From positions 49,235-113,234 of the forward strand of contig JAGATP010000041.1 in assembly GCA_017621155.1 (NCBI GenBank): a DNA stretch of 64,000 nt, given 5' to 3'. The notes beneath the pieces are model-generated. The model was not told where the DNA came from and searched no databases. It saw only the letters and a list, made by a program, of their open reading frames with translations. Each line of letters starts with the position of its first letter. The first letter of the stretch is position 1. Position numbers and translations under genes: made by a program. Source of the stretch: Clostridia bacterium. GTDB taxonomy: Bacteria; Bacillota; Clostridia; Christensenellales; Borkfalkiaceae. This document shows positions 29,220 to 57,884 of this stretch, piece by piece.

Positions 29220-31012
29220 AAATGAGACTTGCCGATTATGTGGCAGACTTTTTGGTTGAAAACGGAATTACCCATCAATTCTGCGTGACGGGCGGCGGCG
29301 CCATGTTTTTGAACGACGCCTTCGGCGGAAAAGAGGGATTGAAGGTATTCTACAATCACAACGAACAAGGTTGTTCCGTCGCAGCGGAGGGCTATGCGCG
29401 GGCGAGCGGAAAGATGTGCTCCGTCTGCGTGACGACAGGGCCGGGCGGCACGAACGCCCTCACGGGCGTCATGGGCGCTTACGTCGATTCGATCCCCATG
29501 TTCGTCATCTCCGGTCAGGTCAAATTCGTGACGACGGTGGCAAGCTGTCCTTCCCTTCCCTTAAGACAGCTCGGAGATCAGGAATTTCCCATCGTAGAAT
29601 GCGCAAAATATATGACGAAGTACGCCGTCATGGTGACGGATCCCAATTCCATTCGCTATCACCTCAAAAAGGCGTTCTATCTTGCCACGCACGGCCGTCC
29701 GGGGCCCGTGTGGCTGGACATTCCCATCAACGTGCAGTCCGCGCTCATCGATACGGAAACGCTCCTCGATTACGACGAGGCGGAGGATAAAAAAGAGCTT
29801 CCTCCTCCCCCGCAAAAAGAACAGATTCAGACGCTGATGAAGCGGCTTTCCGCCGCGAAGCGCCCCGTCATTTTGGCGGGAGACGGAATCCGCATTTCGG
29901 ACACGCAAAAAGAATTTTTGGCGCTCGTCAGAAAATGGGGAATCCCCGTCTGCACGGCTTGGAATTCCCACGATCTTCTCGGCGATACCGATCCTTTCAG
30001 CTGCGGCAGACCTTCTACGGTCGGCACACGCGGGGGCAACATCGTCTTGCAGACCGCAGACTTTGTTTTGGCGCTCGGATGCAGAATGAACATCCGCATC
30101 ATCAGCTACAATTGGGAAAACTTTGCGAAAAACGCCTATCTCGCTTCCGTGGACATCGATCGGGCAGAGCTCGAAAAGCCGACCCTGCACGTCGATCTGA
30201 AAATTCACGCCGATCTTCGGGAGCTGTTGCCCGCCCTTTTAAAGGAAGATTACGCCCCGCATCACGAGGCTTGGCGCGCATGGGCAAAGGAAGTCGCCTT
30301 CCGCTACCCCGCCGATCTTCCCGAATACTACAAAAAATCCACGCCGGTCAATCCCTACGTCTTTATGAAAAAGCTTTCGAAAGCGTTTTCGAATGACGAG
30401 ACGGTCGTCTGCTCCAACGGAAGCGCCTGCGTCTGCTCCTTCCAGGCAATGGAAATGCGGGAAGGTCAGCGCGTCTTTACCAATTCGGGGTGCGCGTCCA
30501 TGGGCTATGGCTTGCCTGCGGCAGTCGGCGCAGCCGTAGCGCTTGCGGGAAAGCGGGTGATCTGCCTCGAAGGGGACGGCTCCATTCAGATGAACTTACA
30601 GGAGCTGCAAACGGTCGTCGGCAATCAGTTGAATGTGAAGATCGTCTGGCTCAACAACGAAGGATATCATTCCATTCGCCAGACGCAGACCAACTCCTTC
30701 CACTCTCATTTTTGCGGAGTTTCCAAGGAGAGCGGCGTCTCTCTCCCCGAAGCGGAGCGCATCGCCTACGCCTATCGCATTCCCTTCTTCCGGGTTGATT
30801 GCCACGAAAAAATCGACGAAACGGTACAAAATTGGCTGAACACGGAGGGCTTTGCCATGCTCGAGGTCGTTCTCGACAAGAAGCAGTTCTTTGCGCCCAA
30901 GCTCTCTTCCAAAACGCTTCCCGACGGGTCGATCGTGTCCCCGTCGCTCGAAGACATGTTCCCCTTCCTTTCCGAAGAGGAAAAGCCAATTTTGCCCGAA
31001 ACATTACGTTAA
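29216..31012 (+). CDS. ThDP-dependent acetolactate-synthase-like enzyme 1 (YerE-like candidate)
   Basis: A 598-aa ThDP enzyme with the three-domain plan of acetolactate synthase. The catalytic Glu is Glu50 in YNHNEQG; the cofactor site is GDGSIQMN ... WLNNEGY in the last domain. Family members in sugar clusters, such as YerE of yersiniose synthesis, transfer a C2 unit from pyruvate to C4 of a CDP-3,6-dideoxy-4-ketohexose. That role is inferred from the RfbF/RfbH context. It is clearly a paralog of the enzyme at 39419. ATGA overlap with GtrA. Confidence 0.82.
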   Translation: MKMRLADYVADFLVENGITHQFCVTGGGAMFLNDAFGGKEGLKVFYNHNEQGCSVAAEGYARASGKMCSVCVTTGPGGTNALTGVMGAYVDSIPMFVISGQVKFVTTVASCPSLPLRQLGDQEFPIVECAKYMTKYAVMVTDPNSIRYHLKKAFYLATHGRPGPVWLDIPINVQSALIDTETLLDYDEAEDKKELPPPPQKEQIQTLMKRLSAAKRPVILAGDGIRISDTQKEFLALVRKWGIPVCTAWNSHDLLGDTDPFSCGRPSTVGTRGGNIVLQTADFVLALGCRMNIRIISYNWENFAKNAYLASVDIDRAELEKPTLHVDLKIHADLRELLPALLKEDYAPHHEAWRAWAKEVAFRYPADLPEYYKKSTPVNPYVFMKKLSKAFSNDETVVCSNGSACVCSFQAMEMREGQRVFTNSGCASMGYGLPAAVGAAVALAGKRVICLEGDGSIQMNLQELQTVVGNQLNVKIVWLNNEGYHSIRQTQTNSFHSHFCGVSKESGVSLPEAERIAYAYRIPFFRVDCHEKIDETVQNWLNTEGFAMLEVVLDKKQFFAPKLSSKTLPDGSIVSPSLEDMFPFLSEEEKPILPETLR

Positions 31013-31028
31013 ACAGGAGGATTCATTT

Positions 31029-31826
31029 ATGAATTTAATCGAAAAGAAAATGCTCGATCTTCTCAAAGAGCTCAGGGACGAACACAACGTCCTCGCCATC
31101 AAGGCGGAATTCGAAGCGGAGGGCAGTCGTACCGACGAGCTCGTCCAACTCAATGAAGTGATCTTCCGTGCCGATATGCAGCTCTTCATCAAAATCGGCG
31201 GATGCGAGGCGGTCAGAGACCTCGACCAGTGCCGCCTGCTCGGCGCAACCGGCATCATGGCGCCCATGATCGAAACGCCGTTCGCCATGAAAAAATACGT
31301 CGGCGCAGCCAAAAAGGTCTACGGAGACCAGGTAAACGACATCAGCTGGATCATCAATGCCGAGACCAAGACCTGCAAGCAGAACTTAAAGGACATTCTC
31401 GACGAGGGCGAGGGATTTTTGAACGTCGTCTCCGTCGGCAGAGTGGATTTGTCCTCTTCCATGGGACTCACCCGTGCGGACATCAATAACGAAACCATGT
31501 TCGAAACGACGAAGGAGATTGCCGAATACACGAGAAAGAGAGGGTATCTCGTCAATTTCGGGGGCGGCATCAGCTTCGACGCCATTCCCTTCATTCGGAG
31601 AATTGCTCCCTATGTAGATAGATTCGAAACGAGAAAGGTCGTCTTCGGCATTATGGACGATGAAAAGAGGCTGGAAAAGGCCATCTATCGCGCCATGGAA
31701 TTCGAAACGCTCTATTTGCAGAACAAGTGCGCTTACTACAATCGCATGGCGAAGGAAGACGAAGCGAGAATGCAGATGTTTACCGTTCGCCTGCAACAGG
31801 CAAAAGACAGACTCGGCATTTTATGA
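31029..31826 (+). CDS. HpcH/HpaI-type aldolase family protein
   Basis: A 265-aa TIM-barrel protein of the class II HpcH/HpaI aldolase or citrate-lyase beta type. KIGGCEAVRDLDQCRLLG (55-72), MAPMIETPFAM (78-88, metal-site Glu) and GRVDLSSSMGL (137-147, metal-site Asp) support this. Such enzymes cleave or form C-C bonds with pyruvate or similar. In this place it could supply or extend the C2/C3 unit for a branched sugar, which is inference. An AGGAGG site precedes the ATG, 16 bases after the ThDP gene. Confidence 0.8.
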   Translation: MNLIEKKMLDLLKELRDEHNVLAIKAEFEAEGSRTDELVQLNEVIFRADMQLFIKIGGCEAVRDLDQCRLLGATGIMAPMIETPFAMKKYVGAAKKVYGDQVNDISWIINAETKTCKQNLKDILDEGEGFLNVVSVGRVDLSSSMGLTRADINNETMFETTKEIAEYTRKRGYLVNFGGGISFDAIPFIRRIAPYVDRFETRKVVFGIMDDEKRLEKAIYRAMEFETLYLQNKCAYYNRMAKEDEARMQMFTVRLQQAKDRLGIL

Positions 31827-33652: not shown

Positions 33653-33667
33653 TTCGGGGAATTGTCT

Positions 33668-36130
33668 GTGGGTAAAAACGCATTCAAAATCATATGCGGA
33701 CTTTTGATGCTCGCCGTGGGCGCGATGACGGGCGCTTTTTGCACGCTCTCCGCTTCGGCAGAGTCCTTCGAAGGGGAAGGGACGCTTTCCAATCCTTACC
33801 TCATTAAGAGCGAAAGGGATTTAAACGAGCTCTCTTTCCGCGTTTCGCAGGGAGAGACCTTTTTCGGCGTGTGTTTTTACCAGACTGCGGACATTAAGTT
33901 TTCCGGTTATTTTCGTCCCATCGGTAACCCCGAAGAGAACACGGGATTTAAGGGAACTTACGACGGCGGAGGGCACGTCCTTTCCAACCTTCGCATCGAT
34001 ACGCGCTATGACACCGTTAACAACGCGCTCTTCGGCGCATTGGGCGGCACGCTTCGCAACCTCGGCGTCGAGAGCGGAACGATCGAGGGTGCAAACTGCG
34101 CCACCTTCGTCTCTTCCGGTATGCCGGGGGCGGTCTCTACCGTCTACAACTGCTATACCCTCCTTTCCCCCGAAGGGCTCGGAAGAAATGCCTCCATCGC
34201 CGACAACTACAACGGCTCGATCGTGCATTGCTGGGCTTACAGCGAAGAGGAGCTTCCGCTCGTGGGCTACGGCGCGATGTCCCTCGTTTCGTGCTATACG
34301 AACGGGGATTTGAGCGAAGAAAAAGTGCAAGTTGCCGAAAACAATCAGACGATTCTGCCCGAACTCATGATCAGCGACTCCTTTGCGCGGCTTTTGGACG
34401 AAAACAGCGCCGAGAACGCCATGCTGCACGCTACTTCTTATCTGGGCTGGGAAAAGGGGAAAAATCACCCCGTGTATTCGCATAGCAGCTATTCTTTGGC
34501 GGGAAGCGGTACGAGGGAAGACCCGTATTTGATTTCTACCGCGAAAGACCTTGCTTACCTTTCGGCTTCCGTCAACGGCGGGAAGAGCTATCAAGGGGAG
34601 TACGTCAGCCTGACGGCGGATATCGACCTTTCCTGTTATGAAAACTTCGTCGCCATCGGTACATACGATAGCGGGACGGAGTTCGCGGGCGTCTTTGACG
34701 GAAACGGATATACGATTTCCAATCTCACCATGCTGAAAACTGCCGACGGCAGAGTGGACAATAACGCCCTTTTCGGCTCGCTTGCGGGCTCTGTCGTCAA
34801 TCTCAGAATTTCGGATGCGGAAATCCACGGTGCTTGCTGTGCGACCTTTGCGGTCGGCGGAACAGCGGACAGCCGCATTGTCAACTGCATTGCGCAGAAT
34901 ATCACGCTCAAGGGCGTGCTTCGAAACGGCGGTCTCGTCGATAATTTTGCGGGCAAGGTCGCCTCTTCTTACTACGGCGGGGAAGAGCCTTTGGCAGGTT
35001 ACAATGCGACGGCGATCGCCTATTGTGCGACCAAAGGTACCGTCACGCGCAACGAAGTCGGGTTAAACGTCGGCAATCAGGTGCGCTATGCGGGAGAAAT
35101 TGACGAGGTGATGAACGCCCGCCTTCTTTACGGCGCGCTCCGCATTTCGTTCGACCCTTCCCTTCTCAAATTCTGGGAGGGGGGCTCGCCCCGACTTCTT
35201 TCCTACGGGCTTGAAGGAGAGGGTACGAAGGAAAACCCGTATCTCATTTCCAAACCCTCCGATCTCGTGTATTTCGCAGCTGCAGTCAACAGCGGCGACA
35301 AATTCGACGGGCAGATGTTTCTGCAAACGGCGGACATCGACATGCAGGGCGTTTTCTTCATGCCGATCGGGCTTTCGGGCGGCATCGCTCGCTTTCAGGG
35401 AGTTTACGACGGAGGGGGGCACACCATTTCTAATCTGGTGATTCGGGAAAACGAGCTCGCCTATTGTAACGCCCTGTTCGGTTCTTTTGAGGGAACGCTC
35501 CTCAATTTGGGGCTCGAAAGCGGCAGAATTTACGGCAATCTCGCGGCGGGACTCGTCTGCGAGGGGTATCAGAGCCTTTTGCGCAACTGCTATTCGAAGG
35601 CGGAGGTGTACGGCTTTGTGCGAAGCGGCGGACTCGTCGACAATTTCGACGGAGAAATCGTGCTCAGTTGGTACGACAATTCGCAAAAGCACCCGCTCGC
35701 GTCTTACAATTACGATCGAATGTACGCTTGCTGCGCTTCGGGCGAACTCGTCAGCGAATGGATGGACGATTCCTATACGGAAGAGTGCAAGGAAAACTTC
35801 GACTTTTCGGAGGTGGACGAAGAATTCGCGGAGGCGTACAACGAAAAAATCCTTTTGGGGTCAACCCGCTACGCCTATCAGCGTTCGTCCCTCATTCTGT
35901 GGACGTTTGAAGACGGACTTTCTTACAGCGACGAGGTGTTTACCTTGCGACCCGAAATGGCGATTCGCTTCCGATCCGTCCTCGTTTCCTGTTATCTTTG
36001 GAACGTCTTGGGCGTTCTGGCAATTGCGGCGGCGCTCGTCGCCATCGTGATTTCGTTTGTTTTCGAGGGCAGAAAAGGAAAGCGTGTAGGAAAAAAGAAT
36101 GAAAGAAAAGACGGCACAAAAACTGCATAA
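33668..36130 (+). CDS. GLUG-like repeat surface protein 1, membrane anchored
   Basis: An 820-aa predicted exported protein. A signal peptide ends at about SASA-ES (residue 30). Three long repeats follow, each with a Gly-x-Gly-Thr...NPYLI start, a TADI strand, a GTYDGGGHVLSNL-type turn and NALFG. These match beta-helix proteins of the GLUG class. A single membrane helix (about 765-792) and a basic tail end the chain; there is no LPXTG. The GTG at 33668 is preferred: GGGGA lies 7 bases before it, and the TTG at 33662 is too close. No catalytic motif is seen. It overlaps the next gene by 32 bases. Confidence 0.78.
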   Translation: MGKNAFKIICGLLMLAVGAMTGAFCTLSASAESFEGEGTLSNPYLIKSERDLNELSFRVSQGETFFGVCFYQTADIKFSGYFRPIGNPEENTGFKGTYDGGGHVLSNLRIDTRYDTVNNALFGALGGTLRNLGVESGTIEGANCATFVSSGMPGAVSTVYNCYTLLSPEGLGRNASIADNYNGSIVHCWAYSEEELPLVGYGAMSLVSCYTNGDLSEEKVQVAENNQTILPELMISDSFARLLDENSAENAMLHATSYLGWEKGKNHPVYSHSSYSLAGSGTREDPYLISTAKDLAYLSASVNGGKSYQGEYVSLTADIDLSCYENFVAIGTYDSGTEFAGVFDGNGYTISNLTMLKTADGRVDNNALFGSLAGSVVNLRISDAEIHGACCATFAVGGTADSRIVNCIAQNITLKGVLRNGGLVDNFAGKVASSYYGGEEPLAGYNATAIAYCATKGTVTRNEVGLNVGNQVRYAGEIDEVMNARLLYGALRISFDPSLLKFWEGGSPRLLSYGLEGEGTKENPYLISKPSDLVYFAAAVNSGDKFDGQMFLQTADIDMQGVFFMPIGLSGGIARFQGVYDGGGHTISNLVIRENELAYCNALFGSFEGTLLNLGLESGRIYGNLAAGLVCEGYQSLLRNCYSKAEVYGFVRSGGLVDNFDGEIVLSWYDNSQKHPLASYNYDRMYACCASGELVSEWMDDSYTEECKENFDFSEVDEEFAEAYNEKILLGSTRYAYQRSSLILWTFEDGLSYSDEVFTLRPEMAIRFRSVLVSCYLWNVLGVLAIAAALVAIVISFVFEGRKGKRVGKKNERKDGTKTA

Positions 36131-37574: not shown

Positions 37575-37621
37575 AATAAGGACAAACCATACGGTTGACG
37601 AAAAACGGGAAGCTTTTTCTT

Positions 37622-39415
37622 ATGACAGATTATAGATTGCGGATCTCCATCCGAAAAAAGTGCATTCTCCTGCTGCTTGCGGTTCTCTTTGCCGTAAGCG
37701 CCTTTTGCTGTCTGTTTTCCCTTTCCGAGACCAAGAAGGCGTCGGCTGACTCCAACATTTCCCTCGAAGGATCGGGAACGCGGTCGAATCCCTATCGCAT
37801 CTCTTCCATTCAGGATCTCACCGTTTTCCGCAACACCGTCAATGGCGGTAAATCCTTTCAAGGGCTTTATTTTTTGCAGACGGAGGACATCGATTTAAAA
37901 CTCCTCTCGAATTTCACGCCCATCGGCACGGAAGAGACTTATTTTGCGGGCATTTACGACGGAGGGGGACATACGATTTCCAACCTGAACATCGCCTCGA
38001 CGGGCGATTCGGCGCTCTTTTCCCACCTTTCGGGTACGGTGCGCAATCTCGGCATCGAGAGCGGCTCGGTATCCGGTCGCGTGGCTGCGTCCTTCGTTCT
38101 GAACGGCACGGAGAGCGCGAGACTTTTGAATTGTTATTCTCTCGCCCGCATCGAAGGGGAGGAGCGGAGCGGCGGACTCGTCGATTCCTTCGATGGGAAG
38201 GTCATGAACGCTTGGTACTACTCCGCTACGACGGACATTCCCGTGGTCGGCTCGGACGTGGGCGAGGCGTATTACTGCTATGGAACAGATTTGGCGCCCG
38301 AATCGGCGAAGGGGGACTTCGTGCAGTGCAAGGAGTACGGCGCATTCTTCTTCCAGGAGGCGGAATTTATCGATATTCTCAATCTGGGCAGAGCGGTGAC
38401 GCTGAACAATCTCTTCCTGAAGGAAGAGGATTTGAATCGCTGGGTGCTTTCGAAAACGCCCGTATTTACCTCCGAACTCAAAACCTGGCAGGGAGAAGGC
38501 TCGAGAATGTCTCCCTATCTTGTGCAGAGCGTGGAGGAGTTCGTCCTCCTGTCCGTCCGCGTCAACGCCGGTGAGAGCTTTAAATCCATGCACTTCGTGC
38601 AGACCGTAGATTTCGACCTCTCCTCCGTGTATAATTTCGTGCCCATCGGCATTTACGAATCCGACCGCTATTTCTTCGGTACGTACGACGGCGCGGGCTT
38701 TATCCTCACCAACCTCATGATCAAGGCCATTCCCGAATCGGTCAATAACGCCCTCTTCGGTCAGCTTGCGGGCACGGTTCGCAACCTCGGCGTCGAGAGC
38801 GGCAGAATTTACGGGGCGAACTGCGCAACGATCGCTTCGCACGCCGTCAGCGTGAAGGCGGAAGTCGTCAACTGCTATTCCAAGGCGCTCGTTTTCGGAC
38901 AGTCGCGGAGCGGCGGCATCGTCGATAACTTTGCGGGTCACGTTTTCAACTGCGTCTACTTCAATCGGGCGCAACCGCTCGTCTTTTTGTGCAGCTACAG
39001 CGCCAATCAGCTGAGAAACTGCTATTCGACGGGAAGCGTTTACAACGACTATACGTTTTCGGGCGAGATGTACGACAACGTGGTCGTCATCAACGAGAAT
39101 TCGAGAATCGAGGAAATCGCCCTTTCCCTCAACGAATGGGTTGCCGATTACGCAGCCTCTTACCGCATGAGCTATTCCAATTTCGCAAAGTGGAAGATGG
39201 ACGATTCGTTTGCCCTCTCCTTTGACGGGCGTTTCAAAATGGAGGAATTGCCCGGTTACGTGCAAGACCTCATCAATAAGCATTATACCGACCAATTGGT
39301 CGTCACGAAAATGATTCTCGTTTCCGTGGTCATCATCGTATTTACCATCGTCATTGACGTACTGTTATACCGCTATCGAAGAAAGCGCATTGACAGAGAA
39401 AAAAGAGGAAAATAA
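37622..39415 (+). CDS. GLUG-like repeat surface protein 2, membrane anchored
   Basis: A 597-aa homolog of the protein at 33668. A signal peptide ends near KKASA-DS (residue 42). Two repeat units follow, each with a G-S-G-T or G-E-G-S start, FVPIG or FTPIG, a GIYDGGGHTISNL-type turn and VRNLG(I/V)ESG. One membrane helix (about 558-582) precedes a basic tail. The ATG at 37622 is used, although a TTG at 37595 in frame has an AAGGA at longer distance. It opens the second transcription unit and is followed after 3 bases by the second ThDP enzyme. Confidence 0.76.
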   Translation: MTDYRLRISIRKKCILLLLAVLFAVSAFCCLFSLSETKKASADSNISLEGSGTRSNPYRISSIQDLTVFRNTVNGGKSFQGLYFLQTEDIDLKLLSNFTPIGTEETYFAGIYDGGGHTISNLNIASTGDSALFSHLSGTVRNLGIESGSVSGRVAASFVLNGTESARLLNCYSLARIEGEERSGGLVDSFDGKVMNAWYYSATTDIPVVGSDVGEAYYCYGTDLAPESAKGDFVQCKEYGAFFFQEAEFIDILNLGRAVTLNNLFLKEEDLNRWVLSKTPVFTSELKTWQGEGSRMSPYLVQSVEEFVLLSVRVNAGESFKSMHFVQTVDFDLSSVYNFVPIGIYESDRYFFGTYDGAGFILTNLMIKAIPESVNNALFGQLAGTVRNLGVESGRIYGANCATIASHAVSVKAEVVNCYSKALVFGQSRSGGIVDNFAGHVFNCVYFNRAQPLVFLCSYSANQLRNCYSTGSVYNDYTFSGEMYDNVVVINENSRIEEIALSLNEWVADYAASYRMSYSNFAKWKMDDSFALSFDGRFKMEELPGYVQDLINKHYTDQLVVTKMILVSVVIIVFTIVIDVLLYRYRRKRIDREKRGK

Positions 39416-39418
39416 AAA

Positions 39419-41215
39419 ATGCGCATCAAACTCTCCGATTATGTCGCCAACTTTATCGTTTCGAAGGGGATTACCCATCTCTTTTCCGTGACGGGCGGGG
39501 GCTCTATGCACCTGAACGATTCCTTTGGGCATAAAGAAGGGCTGAAATCAATTTATTGCCACCATGAACAGGCGTGTGCCATCGCGGCGGAAGCCTTTGC
39601 CAGGGTGGAAAATAAAATCGCCGCAATCTGCGTGACGACCGGGCCGGGCGGAATCAACGCCTTAAACGGGGTATGCGGCGCTTACGTCGATTCCATTCCC
39701 ATGCTCGTCTTTTCGGGACAGGTCAAGCGGGAAACCACCGCTCGGCTTTCGGGGCTTCCGCTGCGCGCAGTGGGCGATCAGGAATTCGACATCGTGGGTT
39801 CGGTCAAAAATATGACGAAATACGCGGAGATGATCGTAAATCCGCAGGATATCCTCTATCACCTGCAAAAGGCGTATTACCTTGCCATGCACGGAAGAAG
39901 AGGCCCTGTCTGGCTCGATATTCCCACGGACGTGCAGTCCGCCATCATCGAAACGGAGGACTTGAGAGAATTTGACGAAGAGGAGGAAACGCCCGTCGTC
40001 TCCGAGGAGACGATCGACGAGATCTGCCGCATGGTGCGACAGGCAAAGCGTCCCGTCGTCTATGCGGGCAGCGCCATTCGCTACGCCGCCGTGCGGGAAT
40101 CCTTTTTGCAACTCGTCGAAAAGTGGAATGTTCCCGTCGTCACGGCGTGGAACTCCATCGACGTCATTTGGGACACCCACCCCGATTACATCGGCAGAGG
40201 CGGAATTATGGGGGACAGAGCGGGCAATTTTGCGGTGCAAAATGCCGACCTCGTCGTCTCCTTGGGCTGTCGGCTCTCCATTCGTCAGGTCAGCTATAAC
40301 TACGAAACGTGGGCGCGCGGCGCGAAGGTCGTCATGGTCGACATCGACAAGTACGAGCTGAAAAAGCCCACCCTTCACGTCGATCTGCCCGTCTGGGGGG
40401 ACATTGCGGACGTCATTCCCCGCCTTGCGTACAAGGCAAAGCCCTCCGAGCATACCGAGTGGCTCGCCCTCTGCAAATCGTGGCAGAAAAAATACCCCGT
40501 CATCACGGAGAAGATGTGCGCTCCCTCCAAGCCCGCCAATCCCTACTGCTTTTTAAAGCGGTTGTCCGAGCGCCTGCGCGATGACGAGCTCATCGTCGTC
40601 GGCAACGGCACTGCCTGCGTCGCGGGCAGCCATTCCCTTCCCATGAAGAAGGATCAGCGCTTTTTCATTCAGTCGGGCATGGCTTCCATGGGCTACGATC
40701 TCCCCGCCGCCCTCGGCGTTGCCCTCGCTTCCAAGCGGGACAGAATCATCCTCATCACGGGGGACGGCTCCATTCAGATGAATTTACAGGAATTGCAGAC
40801 GCTTTTGACCAATCGCATTCCTGTAAAGCTCTTCCTCCTCAACAACGGGGGGTATCAGTCCATCCGACTCACGCAAAAATCCTTCTTCGGCAAGCGAAAT
40901 CCCGTCGGCATCGGTCACGACAGCGGAGACCTCGAATTCCCCGATATGAAGAAAATCGCCCGCGCTTACGGCTTCCCCTTCATGCGCTGCTCTTCCAACG
41001 AACAGCTCGGCGGGGCGATCTCCCGCTTCCTGAACAAGGAAGGGGCGGGCATTCTGGAAATTATCATCGACGAAGGACAGGCGTTCGAACCCAAATCTTC
41101 CTCGCGGCTCTTGCCGGACGGCAGGATTGTGTCCCCCCCGCTCGAAGATTTGGCGCCCTTCCTCTCGCGGGAAGAACTCAAAGAAATCATGCAAATTCCG
41201 ATGATAGGAGAGTAA
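39419..41215 (+). CDS. ThDP-dependent acetolactate-synthase-like enzyme 2
   Basis: A 598-aa paralog of the enzyme at 29216, the same length and colinear through the whole chain. Catalytic Glu50 lies in CHHEQAC, and the ThDP motif is GDGSIQMN ... LLNNGGYQ. Both share VTTGPGG(T/I)NAL and GAYVDSIPM. Two such enzymes in one locus suggest two successive or two alternative C2 transfers, or two different sugars. It is not next to a second HpcH aldolase or SDR. An AGAGGAAAA site precedes the ATG. Confidence 0.82.
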   Translation: MRIKLSDYVANFIVSKGITHLFSVTGGGSMHLNDSFGHKEGLKSIYCHHEQACAIAAEAFARVENKIAAICVTTGPGGINALNGVCGAYVDSIPMLVFSGQVKRETTARLSGLPLRAVGDQEFDIVGSVKNMTKYAEMIVNPQDILYHLQKAYYLAMHGRRGPVWLDIPTDVQSAIIETEDLREFDEEEETPVVSEETIDEICRMVRQAKRPVVYAGSAIRYAAVRESFLQLVEKWNVPVVTAWNSIDVIWDTHPDYIGRGGIMGDRAGNFAVQNADLVVSLGCRLSIRQVSYNYETWARGAKVVMVDIDKYELKKPTLHVDLPVWGDIADVIPRLAYKAKPSEHTEWLALCKSWQKKYPVITEKMCAPSKPANPYCFLKRLSERLRDDELIVVGNGTACVAGSHSLPMKKDQRFFIQSGMASMGYDLPAALGVALASKRDRIILITGDGSIQMNLQELQTLLTNRIPVKLFLLNNGGYQSIRLTQKSFFGKRNPVGIGHDSGDLEFPDMKKIARAYGFPFMRCSSNEQLGGAISRFLNKEGAGILEIIIDEGQAFEPKSSSRLLPDGRIVSPPLEDLAPFLSREELKEIMQIPMIGE

Positions 41216-44670: not shown

Positions 44671-44708
44671 TTTGCCGTGCCTTGACAGGATAAATTTTTT
44701 CAAACCAC

Positions 44709-44737
44709 TTGCCAAGAGATTGATTTTATGCTATGAT
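44709..44737 (+). promoter_or_regulatory. Internal promoter before the Wzy-like gene
   Basis: TTGCCA (44709-44714), 17 bases, TATGAT (44732-44737), start near 44744. It could drive the distal third of the locus. Confidence 0.7.
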
Positions 44738-44779
44738 GATAGTGAGAAATCGGAAATTCCGAACGAAAGAGAGGCTTCT

Positions 44780-46000
44780 ATGGATACAGTCGTGGGCAAA
44801 GAACTCATTTATGCCGTCAGAAATCCGAATAAAGTTTTTTTCGCCAAGCTCTGCTTCTACCTTTTTTGGAGCATTCAGATGGTGTCGAAGGGGCTTGCCT
44901 TTGAGGATGCCGATCGGATTTACAAGATCTTATCCCTCGTTTCGCTCGGATTTCTCGCCCTTAAGTTTCTCCTGACCGATTGGGAATTTCAAGAGCTTGT
45001 TATCGCCTGCGCGCTTGTGTTCTGCGGGTTTATGTGCTATCTGATGACGGGTATGCTCCCGCTGACCATTCTCGCACTTGCACTTGTCGGCATGAAGGAT
45101 GTGCCGGTCAGACCCCTTCTTATCTATACGTTTTATTTGCGGGCAGCAATCTATTTGTACATGGTATCGGGCGCGATTTTAGGCTTTATTCCCGAAATCT
45201 TGTTTGGAAAGAGAGAAATTTTTGACATCGTCGCGTATTTCTTTACGGGTGATTTTCATGTTGTGACCGTTCGCCGCAGCATCGGATACAGCAATCCGAA
45301 CGTCGCTCATATCAGCTTTTTGGTCATCGCGCTTCTGTATCTTTATGTGCGCAAGAACAAGCTCTATGTTTTAGAATACCTCGGCATTGTCTTCTCGAAC
45401 TACATTCTCTATCGCTGGACGGGTAGCCGTACGAGTATGCTCGTCGTCTTTTTCGCGCTGCTATTAAGCATTCTCATTCGCATTCGATTTTTCAAGAAAC
45501 CGCTGTATATCATCGGCGCATGCTCGTTTTTCGCGCTGCTTGCGTTCAGCGTCATCATGGGGCATACCTTTGAGGAACTCTCTGACGATCCGACCTTATG
45601 GCAACGGATCTGCGCAAAGCTCGACAGCCTCTTTTCGACGAGATTGGGACTCAATCACTACGCCGTTTCGACGTTTTCCGTCTGGACGCCGTTCGGACAA
45701 AAATTTCAAAATGACTGGAGTATGTTGGATAACGCCTATTTAAACTTCTGGCTCAGATTCGGACTCATCAATTGCGCTCTGTTTTTATGGGCGAATACCG
45801 GATATCTCCTTCGGTGCAAGCGGTTGGACAGGGAGGAAGCGTTCGTTGCCATCGTGAGTATGGCGGTGCTCGGCATGATGGAAATGTCCCTTTATTCTGT
45901 CACCATGAACGTGTTTTTGCTTCTGTTGTCCGTCTATCTGTATCCTTCCAAAAGAATCGTCTTTCCTGCGGAAAATCCCATTGTCCGCATGTTACAATAA
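44780..46000 (+). CDS. Wzy-like polysaccharide polymerase
   Basis: A 406-aa protein with about ten membrane helices and a large loop, of the O-antigen polymerase/ligase type. The pattern GYSNPNVAHISFLV and, later, YRWTGSRTSML matches G-x-x-HPN-x-A and SRTGM in the N-terminal half of the protein at 53233, so the two are paralogs. Polymerases of this class join lipid-linked repeat units outside the membrane. The start at 44780 has GAGAGG upstream and lies after the promoter. Confidence 0.78.
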   Translation: MDTVVGKELIYAVRNPNKVFFAKLCFYLFWSIQMVSKGLAFEDADRIYKILSLVSLGFLALKFLLTDWEFQELVIACALVFCGFMCYLMTGMLPLTILALALVGMKDVPVRPLLIYTFYLRAAIYLYMVSGAILGFIPEILFGKREIFDIVAYFFTGDFHVVTVRRSIGYSNPNVAHISFLVIALLYLYVRKNKLYVLEYLGIVFSNYILYRWTGSRTSMLVVFFALLLSILIRIRFFKKPLYIIGACSFFALLAFSVIMGHTFEELSDDPTLWQRICAKLDSLFSTRLGLNHYAVSTFSVWTPFGQKFQNDWSMLDNAYLNFWLRFGLINCALFLWANTGYLLRCKRLDREEAFVAIVSMAVLGMMEMSLYSVTMNVFLLLLSVYLYPSKRIVFPAENPIVRMLQ

Positions 46001-49823: not shown

Positions 49824-50696
49824 ATGGTCAGCGTCGTCATTCCTACCTACAACAGAGCGGCTACCCTTCGCCGCGCGATGGAGAGCGTCCTTTCGCAGAG
49901 CTATTCCGATTTAGAGCTCATCGTCGTGGACGACGGCTCGACGGACGAAACGAAGGAGCTCGTCACTTCCTTCTCCGATTCAAGGGTGCGCTACGTCTAT
50001 CAGGAGAACGGCGGAGCTTGCAAGGCGAGAAACCGCGGCGTCCAAGAGGCGAGAGGGGAGCTTATCGCCTTTCAGGACAGCGACGATGAGTGGCTTCCCG
50101 GAAAGCTCGAAAAGCAAGTTTCCTTTTTGAAGGAACAGGACGCCGACATGGTCTATTGCGCGCTCGACAGTTACTTTGAAAGCGGAGAAAAGGAGTGCGT
50201 CATTCCCGCCACTTATCCCCCCATTCGTCAGGGAAATAAGGAGACCGTCAGGCAGATGCTCTTTTCGGGTACCGTCGTTACGCAGACCATTTTGGTGAAG
50301 GCGGACAAGGCGAGGGAAATCCCCTTTGACGAGAGCATGCCGCGCTATCAGGAATGGGAGTGGTCTGTGCGTTTTGCCTATGCGCATTCGGTGGCGTTTC
50401 TCCCTGAAATTCTCGTTCGCCGTTACATTCAGAAGGACAGCATTTCAAGGGTTTCCAAAAATCTTCCCATCGCGATCACCAAAATATTCTATAAAAACTT
50501 CGACACCATTCGCTCGGACAAAGCTCTTTGGAAGCTCTGGACGAGAGAGGTTGCCAACCATCGTTTTCAGCACGGCTTGAAGGCGGGCAAGGAATGCCGA
50601 TACGCCTTTTTTGCCACGGGCAATCCAAAATTTCTCGCGAAATGGTTTTTGTGCCTCTTCGGCTTGGAGAAAAAGGTAGGAAAATATGCAAATTGA
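49824..50696 (+). CDS. GT2 family glycosyltransferase
   Basis: A 290-aa GT-A transferase: VVIPTYNRAATL, VDDGSTDET and FQDSDDEW. The start at 49824 follows the previous stop by one base and lacks a ribosome site, so it depends on translational coupling. An upstream TTG in frame (49797) is possible but adds only nine residues. It overlaps the flippase gene by 11 bases. Confidence 0.86.
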   Translation: MVSVVIPTYNRAATLRRAMESVLSQSYSDLELIVVDDGSTDETKELVTSFSDSRVRYVYQENGGACKARNRGVQEARGELIAFQDSDDEWLPGKLEKQVSFLKEQDADMVYCALDSYFESGEKECVIPATYPPIRQGNKETVRQMLFSGTVVTQTILVKADKAREIPFDESMPRYQEWEWSVRFAYAHSVAFLPEILVRRYIQKDSISRVSKNLPIAITKIFYKNFDTIRSDKALWKLWTREVANHRFQHGLKAGKECRYAFFATGNPKFLAKWFLCLFGLEKKVGKYAN

Positions 50697-52257
50697 TCGT
50701 TCCCGCAATTCGGTGAGAAATATGGCGAGCGGCATTTTCAGCCAGATCGTTACTTTGGTCATGCCGTTCGTCATCCGAACGATTATCATTTACTCTTTGG
50801 GCGATGAATTTGTCGGGGCGAGCAGCTTGTTCGGCTCGATTTTGCAGGTGCTCTCCCTCGCCGAGCTCGGGTTTGCCACGGCGATGGTCTTTTCCATGTA
50901 CAAGCCGATCGCAGAGGACAACGTCGAGCTCGTCTGCGCCCTCTTAAAGCTCTATCGCAACGTCTATCGGGTGATCGGGCTCGTCATTTTGGCGGTGGGG
51001 CTCGCTCTGATGCCCACGCTTCCCTTTCTCGTCAGTGGAACGGTGCCCGAATCGCTCAATCTCTACGTCTTATACCTGCTTGCGCTCTTCAATACGGTGG
51101 CGAGCTATTTCTTTTTCGCCTATAAGAGCTCTCTTTTAACGGCGCACGCCCGCGCAGACGTCTCTACGCTGATTACGGCGCTCACCTGCTTTGTGCAGTA
51201 TGCCGTGCAGATTCTCGTTCTTCTCCACTTTAAAAATTATTACGCCTACTATATTTTTACGCCCGTCTTCACCATCCTTGCGAATCTCCTCCGCTCCAAG
51301 GCGGTGGACATCATGTACCCGCAGTACACCTGCAAGGGCAAAGTGGACAAGGCGTCCCTTTCCGTCATCAAGAAGAACGTCGGCGGACTGTTCTTTCACA
51401 GAATCGGCTCGGTCATCGTCAATTCGACGGATATGATCGTCATTTCCGTCTTTTTCGAGGAGAGTCTTCTCGAGACGGCGAGATATGCGAATTACTACTA
51501 TATCTCCACTGCCGTTTCGGGATTTCTCATCGTGCTGTATAACGCCATCAGCGCGACGACGGGCAACGCCGTCGCCACGAAATCGGTGGATGAAAATTAT
51601 CGGGATTTTTCGAAGTTCTCCTTTATGAACCTCTCCCTCGTCGGGTGGTGCACGGTCTGTCTGTTCGTTCTCTATCAGCCGTTTATGACCATCTGGACGC
51701 CCAACAACCTCTATGACAGCATGCTTATCGTCGCCTGCTTCTGCCTGCACTTTTACTGCTACCGTGCGCGTGCGCTGACGACGGCTTATAAGTCGGCGGC
51801 AGGCATTTATTGGGAAGATCGCTTTTGTCCCTTGGTATCGAGTGCGGTCAACCTCATTCTCGATTTATTGCTCGTGCAGATTTGGGGGATTCCGGGCGTG
51901 CTCATGGCGACGGTCTTCAGTATGCTGTTCATCGAGACGCCTTGGGAAATTGTCGTCCTCTTTAAACTGTACTTTAAGCGCAGTCCCAAGGAGTTCGTCC
52001 TGCGCCAGCTCTTCTATTTCGGCGTCACCGTGCTTGTCACGGCGGTCACATATCTTCTGCTTTCCATCCTTCCCATGTCGATCGGCGGAAAAGAACATCT
52101 CCTTTACAACCTGATCTGGCTCTTCGTCAAGGGCGTTTTGTGCCTGATCGTGCCGACGGGGCTTTTCGCCCTCGCCTATTTCAAGCACGCGCCCGCGCGC
52201 GATGCGGTTGCCTTTGTCAAAAATTATCTCCGTCGGAGGCTTCGCCATGGATCGTGA
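50686..52257 (+). CDS. Wzx-type polysaccharide flippase
   Basis: A 523-aa membrane protein with about 14 helices, of the MATE/MVF-like polysaccharide transporter group. The start SRNSVRNMASGIFSQIVTLV and the NVGGLFFHRIGSVIVNSTDM segment near the middle are typical of Firmicute oligosaccharide flippases. It would flip lipid-linked repeat units. A second flippase domain lies in the protein at 53233. Confidence 0.87.
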   Translation: MQIDRSRNSVRNMASGIFSQIVTLVMPFVIRTIIIYSLGDEFVGASSLFGSILQVLSLAELGFATAMVFSMYKPIAEDNVELVCALLKLYRNVYRVIGLVILAVGLALMPTLPFLVSGTVPESLNLYVLYLLALFNTVASYFFFAYKSSLLTAHARADVSTLITALTCFVQYAVQILVLLHFKNYYAYYIFTPVFTILANLLRSKAVDIMYPQYTCKGKVDKASLSVIKKNVGGLFFHRIGSVIVNSTDMIVISVFFEESLLETARYANYYYISTAVSGFLIVLYNAISATTGNAVATKSVDENYRDFSKFSFMNLSLVGWCTVCLFVLYQPFMTIWTPNNLYDSMLIVACFCLHFYCYRARALTTAYKSAAGIYWEDRFCPLVSSAVNLILDLLLVQIWGIPGVLMATVFSMLFIETPWEIVVLFKLYFKRSPKEFVLRQLFYFGVTVLVTAVTYLLLSILPMSIGGKEHLLYNLIWLFVKGVLCLIVPTGLFALAYFKHAPARDAVAFVKNYLRRRLRHGS

Positions 52258-53236
52258 GCTGAAATTTTGGAAAGACGAATGCGAATACTATCGAAATCAG
52301 CTCGCCTTCCTCGAAAAATACGGCAAAGAGGACGTCCCCGGATTGTGGGGTAAGCTCAGTCGCTTTTCTGCGCGCATGGGAAAGAAGCGCGCACGGAAAA
52401 AACAGATCGCGGCGCAAAGAAGACTCAGAAGAGAGCTGGAGACTCCCGTGGACGGGCTGAACCCGGAAAAGAGGGAAGTCCCCCTCATCGTTTCGCTCAC
52501 GAGTTTTCCCGCCCGCATTTCCTTCGTGCCTGCCGTGGTCGGTTCTCTGCTCCGTCAGACGTGCCGTCCCGACCGCATTCTATTGTATCTTGCGGGGGAG
52601 CAGTTCTCTTCTCCGCTCCCCGAAAAGCTGACCGCCCTTCAAAAGGTCGGCTTGGAGATCAGATTCGTAGAAGATCTCCGCCCCCATAAAAAGTACTTCT
52701 TTGCCATGCAGGAGTACCCCGACGCCGTTCTCGTCACCGTCGACGACGACGTTTTGTATGCGGAGACCTTTTTGGAGGAACTGTACGCTTCCTATCGAAA
52801 ATTCCCCGAAGCGGTTTCCTGTATGCGGGCGCACAAGTTCCGCTTCGACGAAGAGGGGAATCTCAAGCCCTATTTCGAGTGGATTTTGGAATACAACGAA
52901 AAGAGGGGCGTCCCTTCCGCAAATCTCATTCCGACGGGTTGCGGCGGCGTGCTCTATCCGCCCCGTTGCTTTTCGGAAGAGGCGTTCGATCGCGAGACGA
53001 TTCGGCGCATCGCCCTCTCGGCGGACGATTTGTGGCTCAAGGTCATGTGCCTGCGCATGGGGCGAAAGACCGTCCTCTGCGGAGATTCCAAAGCCCCCTT
53101 AAACGACGTTCTGGAGGCGATTCCCACCGCGCTTGCGGGGGAGAACTTCGCTTCTTCGGGCAACGATGAAATTTTAAAGAACATTTTGGCGCATTTTTCC
53201 ATGCGCTTATTCGACTATATGGACGATGAATTATGA
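52247..53236 (+). CDS. Probable GT-A glycosyltransferase
   Basis: A 329-aa soluble protein. After a basic helical start (1-75) it has PLIVSLTSFPARISF, then VTVDDDVLY (DxD-type metal site) and PTGCGGVLYPP. These blocks occur in a family of polysaccharide-locus transferases without an assigned sugar. CGGAGG lies 7 bases before the ATG; an in-frame upstream codon at 52202 is not needed. It overlaps the flippase gene by 11 bases and the next gene by 4. Confidence 0.75.
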   Translation: MDRELKFWKDECEYYRNQLAFLEKYGKEDVPGLWGKLSRFSARMGKKRARKKQIAAQRRLRRELETPVDGLNPEKREVPLIVSLTSFPARISFVPAVVGSLLRQTCRPDRILLYLAGEQFSSPLPEKLTALQKVGLEIRFVEDLRPHKKYFFAMQEYPDAVLVTVDDDVLYAETFLEELYASYRKFPEAVSCMRAHKFRFDEEGNLKPYFEWILEYNEKRGVPSANLIPTGCGGVLYPPRCFSEEAFDRETIRRIALSADDLWLKVMCLRMGRKTVLCGDSKAPLNDVLEAIPTALAGENFASSGNDEILKNILAHFSMRLFDYMDDEL

Positions 53237-55917
53237 CGTTTCAAGCGGCAAAACAGCAGATAGCCCTTTCTTTTCGGGAGAAGAAAAGGGAGAAAGCGAG
53301 AAAGTCGCTTTCCGTTGAGCTCGACGGCGGGAGAAACGGAAAGGGGACTTGTTTTTACTATGCCTTCTGGGCGATCATGCTCTTTGCAAAGGCGTTGAAT
53401 TTGAGCTCCTCCGACCGTCTGTTGCAGCTCTGTATGCTCGCGGCGCTCGGCTGTCTCGCCCTCAAATATCTCTTTACCGATTGGACGGCAAGGGGGGCGT
53501 TTGTCGGCTGGTGTCTGTGCGCGCTCGGCGTCCTCACCTTTTTGAAGTCGGGCAGCACCGAGCTTTTGATTACGCTCGCCGCCATCGTGGGGTCGAAGGA
53601 CGTCAAGCTCATGCCCCTCATCAAATTTATCTTCGGGCTTCGCCTCGTCATCTTCTGCGCCACCATTCTCATGGCGACGACGGGAATTGTCGAAAACGTC
53701 TCCGAGTTTACGGAGGATTTCGACGGCAACCTTTTAAAGGGACAGCGCTTTTACCTCGGCTTCGTGCACCCCAACTTTGCGCAGGTTTCCCTGTTCGTCC
53801 TCATCGGGCTGTATTCCTGGATCAACTTCAAAAAGCTGAACATCATTCACTTCGGGGTCTTTCTCGCCCTCAATTTCCTGCTTTATCAGTATACCATGAG
53901 CCGAACGGGCATGATGCTCATCTGCCTTCTGTGCTTCTGCCTTGCCCTGTTCCGTCAGGAGAGCCTCTTCAAAGGGAGCGCGCTCTTTACCGCAGTTCCC
54001 GTCTTTCTCGCCCTGTTCTGTCTGTTCATCGGCGTCATGTACAATCGGGACGTCTCTCCGAACGCTCCTCTCGTCAAGCTCAACGAAATGTTTTCGGGCA
54101 GAATCTTTCTCATCTTCCATTTCCTCCGCTTCGGCGTCACGGCATTCGGAGCCGAGGTCGTCACGGACAGCGTTTACGTCCTCGATTGCGCCTATACCAT
54201 GCTGTTAAAGCAGTACGGCTTTGTGAGCTTCTTGTTTTTCGTGTGCCTTGGGACGGTCGTCCTCGTCAAACTCTATCGCGAGCGGCGTGCAGGCGCCCTC
54301 CTCTTTGCGGGAATGTTCTGGGTATTGGGCTTTTTCGAGCACTTCACGATCGACGTTTTCGTCAACCCCACCCTTCTTCTGTTTGCGCCCCTGCTCTTTG
54401 GGACGAAGACGGAGCGAAGCGAACGGCCCGCCTTTGCAAAGCCCGTTCTTCCGGGACAAAAGCGCACGCTTGCGGGCAATTTCCTCTACTATCTCACCTA
54501 TACCCTCTTGCAGGTCGTCATTCCCCTCGTCACCATCGTCTACGTGTCCAAAATTCTCGGCGCGGATGGCGTGGGCAAGGCTTCGGTGGCGCAGAACTTC
54601 GCTTCCTATTTTACCATTATCGCCTCGCTCGGCATTCCCAACTACGGCACGCGGGAGCTTTCCAAGGCAAAGACGCGGGAAGAGCGGGACAGAATTTTCA
54701 CCGAGCTCTTTTCCATCAACTTTATCTCCACGACGATCTGCCTCGTCGCTTACCTCGTGGCAGTGCTGTCCTTCGGGTATTTCGAAGGGTTAAAGCCCTT
54801 GTACCTCGTGGCGGGGCTTGCCATCGCCCTTAACTATTGCAACGTCGATTGGCTGTACCGCGGAACGGAGGAATATCCCTTTATGACGGAATCCTCCCTC
54901 ATCGTCAAGGCGGCGGCGTTCATCGGGCTCCTGCTCTTCGTCACCAAGCCGCAGGACGTAGCTCCCTATCTCCTGCTCGCGACGATCGCGCTCACCGGTT
55001 CGGGCGTGCTCAATTTGATTTATGCGAGAAAGTTCGTCTCCTTCCGCTTCAAGGGTATTTCTTTGAAACGGCACTTAAAGCCCGTCTTTGTGCTCCTCGC
55101 GGCGAACGTCGCTATCGAGCTTTACACCCTGCTCGACATCACCATGCTCGGAATTTTCTGCACGGACGCGGAGGTCGGCTATTACACAAACGCCATGAAG
55201 CTCGTCAAGACCACCGTCACGGTGATCTGCACGATCGGCGCCATTCTCCTTCCGAAGCTTTCCGTCTCCTTCCAAACTGATCGAAAGTCTTCCGATCAGA
55301 TGGTGCAAAAGGCGTTTTTCATTCTTCTTCTCATCTGCCTTCCCGCTACGTTTGGCATTTTCTTTCTCTCTGACAGCATCATTTTGGGGCTGTTCGGAGC
55401 GGAATACTTCCCTTCCGTTCCCATCATGGTCGTGCTCGCGCCCTTAATTCTCATCATGGGGATCGGCAATTTGTTCGGAACGCAGGTCTTGCTCTCGTCG
55501 GGGGCGGAGCGCAAGCTCTTCTATTCCGTCCTCTTGGGAGCGGCGTCCAATATGGCGCTCAACGCCTTCTTGATTCCCGCGTTCGGCGGCAGGGGAGCGG
55601 CGCTCGCCTCCGTCATAAGCGAACTGCTCGTCATGACAGCGCAAATCGTCTTTGCCCTAAAGTACTGCTCGCTGCGCCTTTCTCCCGCAGAATGCGCAAA
55701 GCCTGTCCTCGCCACGATCGGCATGTGCCTTGCGCTCGTCCTCGTTCGCTTTTTCATTTCCTCCGCGCTTGTAGAGGTCGTCGTCGGAATTTTCGTCGGC
55801 GTGCTCGTCTACTTCGGCATCTGCTTTGCCCTTCGTCAGAAGGAATGCATCGAAGGGGCAGCCATGGTTAAGGGTAAGCTTTTGCCCCTCCTTCGCAGGA
55901 AGAAAGGGGAATCCTGA
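53233..55917 (+). CDS. Wzy-Wzx fusion: polymerase-like plus flippase domains
   Basis: An 894-aa protein with more than 20 predicted membrane helices. Residues about 35-395 resemble the polymerase at 44780: FVHPNFAQVSLFVLIGLY and YQYTMSRTGMML match GYSNPNVAHISF and SRTSML. After a soluble linker (about 396-412), KRTLAGNFLYYLTYTLLQ begins a complete Wzx-type flippase with IPNYGTRELSKAK and NVDWLYRGTEEY, motifs of the RfbX family. The frame is open throughout and the linker shows no stop, so this is a real fusion in the sequence given. ATGA overlap with the upstream gene; a terminator follows. Confidence 0.85.
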   Translation: MTFQAAKQQIALSFREKKREKARKSLSVELDGGRNGKGTCFYYAFWAIMLFAKALNLSSSDRLLQLCMLAALGCLALKYLFTDWTARGAFVGWCLCALGVLTFLKSGSTELLITLAAIVGSKDVKLMPLIKFIFGLRLVIFCATILMATTGIVENVSEFTEDFDGNLLKGQRFYLGFVHPNFAQVSLFVLIGLYSWINFKKLNIIHFGVFLALNFLLYQYTMSRTGMMLICLLCFCLALFRQESLFKGSALFTAVPVFLALFCLFIGVMYNRDVSPNAPLVKLNEMFSGRIFLIFHFLRFGVTAFGAEVVTDSVYVLDCAYTMLLKQYGFVSFLFFVCLGTVVLVKLYRERRAGALLFAGMFWVLGFFEHFTIDVFVNPTLLLFAPLLFGTKTERSERPAFAKPVLPGQKRTLAGNFLYYLTYTLLQVVIPLVTIVYVSKILGADGVGKASVAQNFASYFTIIASLGIPNYGTRELSKAKTREERDRIFTELFSINFISTTICLVAYLVAVLSFGYFEGLKPLYLVAGLAIALNYCNVDWLYRGTEEYPFMTESSLIVKAAAFIGLLLFVTKPQDVAPYLLLATIALTGSGVLNLIYARKFVSFRFKGISLKRHLKPVFVLLAANVAIELYTLLDITMLGIFCTDAEVGYYTNAMKLVKTTVTVICTIGAILLPKLSVSFQTDRKSSDQMVQKAFFILLLICLPATFGIFFLSDSIILGLFGAEYFPSVPIMVVLAPLILIMGIGNLFGTQVLLSSGAERKLFYSVLLGAASNMALNAFLIPAFGGRGAALASVISELLVMTAQIVFALKYCSLRLSPAECAKPVLATIGMCLALVLVRFFISSALVEVVVGIFVGVLVYFGICFALRQKECIEGAAMVKGKLLPLLRRKKGES

Positions 55918-55975
55918 GCAGAACTTTCGGCTCAAAGCAAGGGCGAAGTTTAAAAAATTATAATGAAAAAGATAA

Positions 55976-56002
55976 AAAACTCTGCATCGGCAGAGTTTTT
56001 TT
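55976..56002. terminator. Intrinsic terminator at the end of the polysaccharide locus
   Basis: AACTCTGC/GCAGAGTT with loop ATCG, T-run on the plus side and A-run before it, so it works in both directions. Confidence 0.88.
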
Positions 56003-56022
56003 GGCTTGGAAAGGTTTTTTGT

Positions 56023-56051
56023 TTGACAAGAAAGGGTGGTTGTGATAAAAT
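56023..56051 (+). promoter_or_regulatory. Promoter of the ABC exporter pair
   Basis: TTGACA (56023-56028), 17 bases, TAAAAT (56046-56051). Confidence 0.82.
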
Positions 56052-56102
56052 AGAAAAACTATTGTAAACGATTTTATACGATCGGATGAACGGAGGAGCG
56101 GC

Positions 56103-57884
56103 GTGGTTTTCGGAAAATATATCAATCGGTATTATCTTAAATACGGTTGGATTTTGCTCATCGGCATTCTTTCTCTCATCATGGTAGACTACTTCCAGCT
56201 CGAAGTGCCCGAATTTTACCGTCTCATTATCAACGGCATGAACGAAGGCAGCGTCGTTCTGGACGGGACGGAATATCCTTTCGATATGAATTTTGTCCTC
56301 GATCACATTTGTCTTCCCATGTTGATTGTCATTCTCGCCATGGTATCGGGGCGGTTTTTATGGCGTATCTGCTTTTTCGGCTCGGCGATTAAGGTGGAGA
56401 CAGACCTCAGAAAGAGAATGTTCGATCACTGCAAAAATCTCTCTCAGCAGTACTATCAGGTGAACAAAGTGGGCAACCTGATGTCTCTCTTTACCAACGA
56501 TCTCGACACCATCAATGAGTGCTACGGCTGGGGCGTCATGATGTTCTGCGACGCGCTCTTTTTGGGCGTGCTCGCCCTCATCAAAATGTTCCGTATGAGC
56601 GGAATGCTCACCCTTCTTTCCCTCATTCCAATGGGGCTGTTGCTCGTTTGCGGAACGCTCGTGGGCAACGTCATGGAAAAAAAGTGGGAAGAGCGGCAGC
56701 AGGCGTTTTCCGATCTTTCCGACTTTGCGCAGGAGAGCTTTTCGGGCATTGCGGTCATCAAGGCGTTCGTCAAAGAGGCGAAGGAGCTCATCGCCTTCCG
56801 TTGGCTCAACAAGAAGAACGAGGACATCAACGTCAAATTCACCAAGATTTCCACCCTTTTGAATATCCTCGTCACCCTGTTCGTCGAGTCTATTATCTGC
56901 GTTATTTTGGGTTATGGCGGTTTTCTCGTCCATGAGGGGACGTTCGACGCGGGACAGCTCATCGAGTTCATCGGCTATTTCACGGCGATTACCTGGCCCA
57001 TCATGGCGGTCTCGGAGCTCATTGGCATGATTTCGAGGGGCAAAGCTTCTTTAAAGAGAATCAGCGAGCTTCTCGACGCCAAGCAGGATGTCGTCGATCG
57101 GGAAGGGGCGAAGGAAGTCGATGACTTGCGCGGCAAAATCGAATTTAAGCACCTCACCTTCCGCTATCCGGACGGAGAGTTCGACGTTTTGAAGGACGTC
57201 TCCTTCACCATCGAGGAAGGGGAGAACGTCGGCGTCGTCGGAAAGACGGGTTCGGGAAAGACGACCATCGTCGATCTCATTTTGAGGACGTACAACGTGC
57301 CAGACGGTACGATTTTCGTGGACGGGCACGACGTCAACGACATTACCATCCGCTCGGTGCGAAAGGCGTCCGCCTACGTTCCGCAGGATAATTTCCTCTT
57401 TTCGGACACCATTGAAAACAACATCTGCTTCGCATCGGACGAGAGGAGCTTGGAAGCGGCGATCGAGGCGGCGAAGCTCGCCGACATCGACGAGAACATC
57501 ACGGGCTTTCAGGAATCCTATCAGACGGTGCTCGGCGAGCGCGGCGTCACCGTTTCGGGCGGACAGAAACAGCGTATCTCCATCGCCCGCGCACTCATGA
57601 AGAACGCTCCCATTCTCATTCTGGACGATTCCGTCTCCGCGGTGGATACCAAGACGGAAAAGAACATTTTGGACAACTTGCGCAAGACCCGTGCGGGCAA
57701 GACGACCGTTCTCATCGCGCACCGCATTTCCACCATCGAAAAGATGGACAAGATCATCTTTATTGACGACGGCAAGGTCGTCGCGGTCGGCGCGCACAGC
57801 GAACTTTACGAGAACTGCTCCGAATACAGAAAGATGGTCGATCTGCAAAAACTCGAAGACGAAGGAGGAGAAGAAAATGCGTGA
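56103..57884 (+). CDS. Heterodimeric ABC exporter subunit A
   Basis: A 593-aa type IV (B-family) ABC exporter half: six membrane helices (1-320) and an NBD with Walker A VGKTGSGKTT, signature VSGGQKQR and Walker B LILDDS. The catalytic Glu after Walker B is Asp/Ser here (DDS), so its own ATP site is degenerate, as in BmrC or TM287. The start is GTG at 56103 with CGGAGGAG upstream. It overlaps the partner gene by 8 bases. Drug, lipid or peptide cargo cannot be told. Confidence 0.9.
   Translation: MVFGKYINRYYLKYGWILLIGILSLIMVDYFQLEVPEFYRLIINGMNEGSVVLDGTEYPFDMNFVLDHICLPMLIVILAMVSGRFLWRICFFGSAIKVETDLRKRMFDHCKNLSQQYYQVNKVGNLMSLFTNDLDTINECYGWGVMMFCDALFLGVLALIKMFRMSGMLTLLSLIPMGLLLVCGTLVGNVMEKKWEERQQAFSDLSDFAQESFSGIAVIKAFVKEAKELIAFRWLNKKNEDINVKFTKISTLLNILVTLFVESIICVILGYGGFLVHEGTFDAGQLIEFIGYFTAITWPIMAVSELIGMISRGKASLKRISELLDAKQDVVDREGAKEVDDLRGKIEFKHLTFRYPDGEFDVLKDVSFTIEEGENVGVVGKTGSGKTTIVDLILRTYNVPDGTIFVDGHDVNDITIRSVRKASAYVPQDNFLFSDTIENNICFASDERSLEAAIEAAKLADIDENITGFQESYQTVLGERGVTVSGGQKQRISIARALMKNAPILILDDSVSAVDTKTEKNILDNLRKTRAGKTTVLIAHRISTIEKMDKIIFIDDGKVVAVGAHSELYENCSEYRKMVDLQKLEDEGGEENA

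Follow-up and report, generated by a model that had tools for sequence, protein, structure and literature searches.

A fused gene for a WaaL/Wzy-like domain and a predicted flippase

The 64,000-nucleotide stretch of a Clostridia bacterium genome analyzed here (the window) carries one gene whose 894-residue product joins a WaaL/Wzy-like membrane domain, through a short linker, to a predicted Wzx-type flippase (Table 1). The frame is uninterrupted over all 894 codons, with no stop in the linker segment (residues 392-416, 54406-54480), and full-length proteins with this join form a set of seven distinct sequences (the window protein, P0002-P0006, and P0015), the other six being 46-94% identical to the window protein. 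A first-pass annotation, made from the sequence alone, had described the gene as a Wzy polymerase and a Wzx flippase in one chain. The single frame, the stop-free linker, and the seven fused proteins bear out the one-chain architecture, and the conserved joining of a Wzy/WaaL-like domain to a Wzx-type flippase is real, but the first half may be a ligase rather than the polymerase originally named.

In the C-terminal half, PF01943 matches residues 415-677 with 94.4 bits against a curated cut-off of 28.2, in agreement with the RfbX-type flippase proposed at first pass, and PF13440 also scores above its cut-off; no other PF01943 match lies on the contig. AlphaFold was run on the full-length protein with seven rows and gave a predicted local distance difference test score (pLDDT) of 55, falling below 50 across most of the N half; only the C-terminal part of this model was used, which displays the WzxE/MurJ fold, and contact between the halves cannot be judged from it. 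The C-terminal domain is predicted from these matches to be a Wzx-type flippase of the multidrug/oligosaccharidyl-lipid/polysaccharide (MOP) superfamily.

The N-terminal half has no match to PF04932 (Wzy_C) at E up to 0.1, nor at E up to 1, and its separate paralogue in the same cluster (open reading frame (ORF) 44672-46000, similar over residues 40-392 of the fused protein) scores 18.4 bits against a cut-off of 31.7. Because the curated PF04932 cut-off is not reached, we call the half WaaL/Wzy-like and do not file it in that family. When profiles were compared with each other, the N half matched Wzy_C beyond chance (probability 96.8, E 2.2e-10, score 85.9) in an alignment that pairs the R, G, and H/D sites, while reversed controls stayed at 0.6-0.9% (scores 21-23), a comparison of the N half with flippases at 0.2%, and the unrelated pair of flippase against Wzy_C at 6.9%, or 10.4% when reversed (scores 32-34). 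Given these controls, a chance hydrophobic match was dropped as an explanation. With a structural model of the N half, Foldseek returned no match better than E 0.2, and the best chain after re-alignment was WaaL (7tpg), at only 9% identity; the sequence profile of the half had no match among PDB sequences at E up to 10, and viral contigs yielded no relative by the patterns searched.

Table 1. Features of the fused gene, its domains and motifs, and related genes, in window coordinates
Feature	Position	Strand	Remarks
Fused gene, WaaL/Wzy-like domain + linker + Wzx-type flippase, 894 aa	53233..55917	+	Single open frame; join shared with P0002-P0006 and P0015
N-terminal WaaL/Wzy-like domain, residues 38-391	53344..54405	+	12 membrane helices in hand-drawn model
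HPN motif, residues 179-181	53767..53775	+	Invariant in 7 fusions; H in 8/20 of wider family
SRT motif, residues 223-225	53899..53907	+	R224 in 19/20 family members
R290 to G306, predicted outer loop	54100..54150	+	R290 20/20, G306 19/20
D318	54184..54186	+	20/20 in family; His in Wzy_C relatives (27/28)
Linker, residues 392-416, predicted cytoplasmic	54406..54480	+	23-29 residues long in 7 fusions; residues 366-425 without start codon
Predicted Wzx-type flippase domain, residues 417-867	54481..55833	+	14 predicted membrane segments
Preceding gene, 344 aa	52202..53236	+	Counterpart at equivalent place in G002, 58% identical
Separate Wzy/WaaL-like paralogue of N half, same cluster	44672..46000	+	31% identity, E 4e-28; PF04932 below cut-off

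Conserved residues and topology

Residue conservation was counted in a 20-member polymerase family and compared with a Wzy_C set of 28. Besides the positions in Table 1, G176 (20/20) and R172 (19/20) are conserved in the family. An arginine aligns with R290 in 28/28 of the Wzy_C set, and the N half thus possesses the outer-loop arginine of the SGR site; the His of the HN site, in contrast, is replaced by Asp throughout. The distance between R290 and G306 is 15 residues in four fusions, 16 in two others, and 17 in the seventh; RX15G is a known Wzy motif. An RX10G pattern is mentioned in PMC5748678. In WaaL and PglS, the His at the position equivalent to D318 has been proposed as catalytic, and H324A PglS served as the inactive control (PMC12800693); by alignment, R290 and D318 are putative catalytic residues of the N half. 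Of the two motifs that the first-pass annotation had assigned jointly to the N half and the paralogue, SRT-x-M is common to both, whereas the paralogue reads NPN in place of HPN.

Hydropathy on six rows picked out 9 segments for the N half, against 14 for the C half. A 12-helix model of the N half, taking the helices of the first structure model and placing both ends inside, puts HPN, SRT, R290-G306, and D318 outward and the linker inside; its loop charge (23.5 K+R in 94 inner versus 7.2 in 97 outer loop residues) is a matter of consistency and not proof, as the model was drawn by hand after the data had been seen. Both halves would have their ends in the cytoplasm, with the linker inside and both chambers able to open outward. 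Identity to the homologous gene in G002, a fused genome of the same genus, was nearly equal at codon positions 1, 2, and 3 for the N half (0.69, 0.79, and 0.51) and the flippase (0.67, 0.79, and 0.48), and the two halves therefore look alike in constraint; the linker gave 0.52, 0.44, and 0.24, with 32% residue identity. An internal start that would release a free flippase was dropped for the window gene, where residues 366-425 hold no ATG, GTG, or TTG codon, while the G002 gene has possible start codons in the linker at 385 and 388 and may use an internal start there.

Distribution and origin of the join

In one search, five of 11 proteins (P0002-P0006) gave alignments covering 96-100% of the chain, and a sixth fused relative, P0015, was among the 21 proteins of a second. 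Two contig-cut pieces (P0007 and P0013), from records named Christensenellaceae bacterium, are perhaps the two ends of one more fusion and were left out of the seven. Within the genus, the fusion occurs in 2/3 genomes, the third being 79% complete. In a survey of the family, 71/398 genomes matched, and a stop-free span of both halves was seen only in the genome of the window (G000) and in G002; four further genomes match across both halves with one intervening stop, and the matches in G140 and G068, which run through stops, take in no more of the N half than its final 50-70 residues. In the order (396 genomes), G000 alone spans both halves, and G002 is absent among the matches listed; each survey scored two candidates per genome at the most, leaving weaker places out of view. 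A profile search of genome contigs with the N-half alignment found a single locus, namely the gene in G002. In G002, the operon stays collinear over the run of genes that starts with GT4 and ends with the ATP-binding cassette (ABC) transporter, at 52-81% identity per gene. The first-pass annotation had named separate genes in all close relatives as grounds for abandoning the fusion; the join is present in the nearest relatives, and separate genes appear only at greater distance.

In g5, these separate genes are adjacent. The polymerase family is present in 15/398 family genomes, and in all seven g5 genomes that have it the polymerase gene ends directly before the flippase match; in g4, the flippase match lies on a different contig in 3/3 genomes with the polymerase. 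In four of the g5 genomes (G202, G219, G209, and G230), both genes share one frame, with one stop plus 6 nt between them and free tails whose summed length is about that of the fused linker. A Wzy-family ORF lies directly upstream of 9/28 unfused flippase loci of the family, although five of these nine belonged to the family model by construction, and of 2/6 in the order. The simplest origin suggested by these arrangements would be the loss of the stop codon that separated two neighboring genes in one frame.

A second chain of related composition was observed in another genus, where a single 1230-aa frame of G245 (L117:579-4268, minus strand) encodes a Wzy_C domain, then a TupA-like ATP-grasp domain, and last a flippase, with Wzy_C at 44.9 bits (cut-off 31.7) and flippase PF13440 at 296 bits. 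Neither a stop nor a start codon was seen at its junction, which speaks against a one-base error. It was seen in 1/9 genomes of its genus; in a relative, G240 (L119), Wzy-TupA and flippase are two genes 1 nt apart, and a search of 307 genomes of the order returned flippase matches only, none spanning the chain.

Genomic surroundings

The fusion ATG overlaps the stop of the preceding gene by 4 nt. Downstream lie a stem-loop (55974-56001) and a promoter-like site (56023-56051), and the fused gene is therefore probably the last of its operon, although such sites are no more frequent in this downstream segment than in shuffles; an Rfam search of 52000-57000 gave no match. Upstream are two GT2 genes, the separate Wzy-like ORF at 44672, a WecG/TagA/CpsF transferase, a double GT4, and two more GT2 genes, along with two genes having no family above the cut-off. 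Flippase and polymerase genes thus lie within a glycosyltransferase cluster, as in a Wzx/Wzy-dependent pathway. The cluster also contains a DegT aminotransferase, two thiamine pyrophosphate-dependent enzymes, and an HpcH/HpaI aldolase-like gene (27403-31823 and 39419-41212), hinting at an unusual sugar. Three large ORFs have no Pfam family above the cut-off (33662-36130, 37595-39415, and 50686-52257), the last being 66% identical in G002.

Interpretation of the fused chain

We favor, with a probability of roughly 60%, a reading in which the 894-residue chain combines a WaaL/Wzy-like predicted polymerase with a predicted Wzx-type flippase and likely hands the flipped unit straight over. The flippase half would bring each lipid-linked unit to the outer leaflet, where the N half, tethered and with its active site facing outward, would add it to the growing chain. 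A bolder version is doubtful: a covalent flip-and-polymerize machine in which the tether replaces a bridging co-polymerase, the flippase feeds the polymerase one to one, Asp replaces His, and the join arose at least twice in the family (as Wzy-Wzx in the genus of G000 and as Wzy-TupA-Wzx in that of G245). With a threshold of E 0.01, neither G000 (97.8% complete) nor G002 (84%) has a match to the Wzz-type co-polymerase family PF02706, which does match in the genome of this genus that lacks the fusion. A replacement of Wzz by the tether becomes less plausible, however, because two g5 genomes without the fusion, G219 and G226, likewise have no PF02706 match and the fused G245 has one; G202 and G230 show one match only, below the cut-off.

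The alternative that survives best, though we consider it unlikely, is that the N half is a ligase moving the flipped glycan to an acceptor while the paralogue at 44672 serves as the polymerase. WaaL is the best re-aligned fold, the superfamily comprises ligases, polymerases, and protein-glycosylating enzymes, and two of its members stand in this one cluster. The ligase alternative also stays alive because no LytR-CpsA-Psr (LCP, PF03816) wall ligase was found at E 0.001 in any of 10 genomes (G000, G001, G002, G202, G230, G219, G226, G245, G240, and G313), with 7/14 control genomes matching. Against it, WaaL-type ligases usually serve lipopolysaccharide, and the g5 homologue directly before a flippase keeps the usual company of Wzy, an arrangement nonetheless compatible with a ligase.

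Less probable again is that the join is a passive by-product of tightly packed operons, with two independent enzymes and no handover of substrate. Many unrelated neighbors are fused in this bacterial order, and these speak for a by-product. Flippase C-termini are fused to Acyl_transf_3 (L018:1489-3975 and L019:1525-4011) and to UDP-galactopyranose mutase (GLF; L025:1495-4086), and other flippases to RmlC and RmlD, LicD (two genomes), and DUF1295 (L125:868-3795, L126:1564-4128, L127:1681-4131, and L130:1258-3390). Wzy-type proteins are joined to GT4 (L115:2011-4638 and L123:2329-4932), a GT28-like domain (L116:1661-4483), and TupA, a member of the N-half polymerase family itself to GT2 (L124:637-2757), and a GT2-flippase chain is found in P0023, whose taxon is not established. 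Precomputed domains also place YfhO (PF09586) with a flippase in P0012 (1330 aa) and a flippase with RmlC/RmlD-type domains in P0009 (949 aa). Because flippases and Wzy proteins are joined to so many other partners, fusion alone is no proof of contact and in this order could owe as much to tight operons as to contact; the first-pass claim of "direct physical support" for a Wzx-Wzy complex was accordingly overstated. The four relatives one stop codon away from fusion and the weakly conserved linker (32% identity to G002) likewise suit a by-product, whereas retention of the join down to 46% identity and a linker that is short in all seven fusions (23-29 residues) do not.

An assembly error or linker frameshift is very unlikely, even with a genome in 59 contigs and one stop codon parting the genes in relatives, because seven distinct full-length sequences share the join (P0004 representing 23 member sequences and P0002 representing 4), the G002 operon is collinear, and residues 366-425 hold no start codon.

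A predicted flippase and a predicted polymerase encoded as one chain, as in this small set of uncultured Clostridia, would let a single machine deliver and join the units, and the debated partnership of flippase and polymerase becomes open to direct test. A natural single chain fixes the ratio of the two at one to one. The chain would also make a larger particle for structure work on a polymerase-like family in which the sequence profile found no solved relative, and the His-to-Asp change provides a concrete catalytic test.

Comparison with known systems

In the Wzx/Wzy-dependent pathway, flippase and polymerase are described as separate proteins (PMC10030265, PMC11706664), and a physical Wzx-Wzy unit has been argued from complementation genetics (PMC10030265). 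No Wzy-Wzx fusion is named in the literature searched, the available text of PMC11340318 included, a scope that excludes preprints and most subscription papers. The WzxE/WzyE/WzzE system of enterobacterial common antigen likewise has a WzxE-fold MOP flippase, a WaaL/Wzy-like membrane enzyme, and a glycosyltransferase cluster with a WecG/TagA/CpsF protein, but here the two occupy one chain, and G000 and G002 have no Wzz (PF02706) match. The O-antigen ligase WaaL (7tpg) differs in having His where the N half has Asp, in sharing 9% identity, and in the flippase fused to the N half here. The G245 chain also places a Wzy_C domain, there above the cut-off, before a flippase in a single frame, but inserts a TupA-like ATP-grasp domain between the halves and is known from one genome only, being split in G240. 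In Rhizobium, flippase PssL and polymerase PssT are likewise proposed to be held together, but by a third protein, PssP, according to two-hybrid data (PMC5748678), whereas in the window protein the link is covalent.
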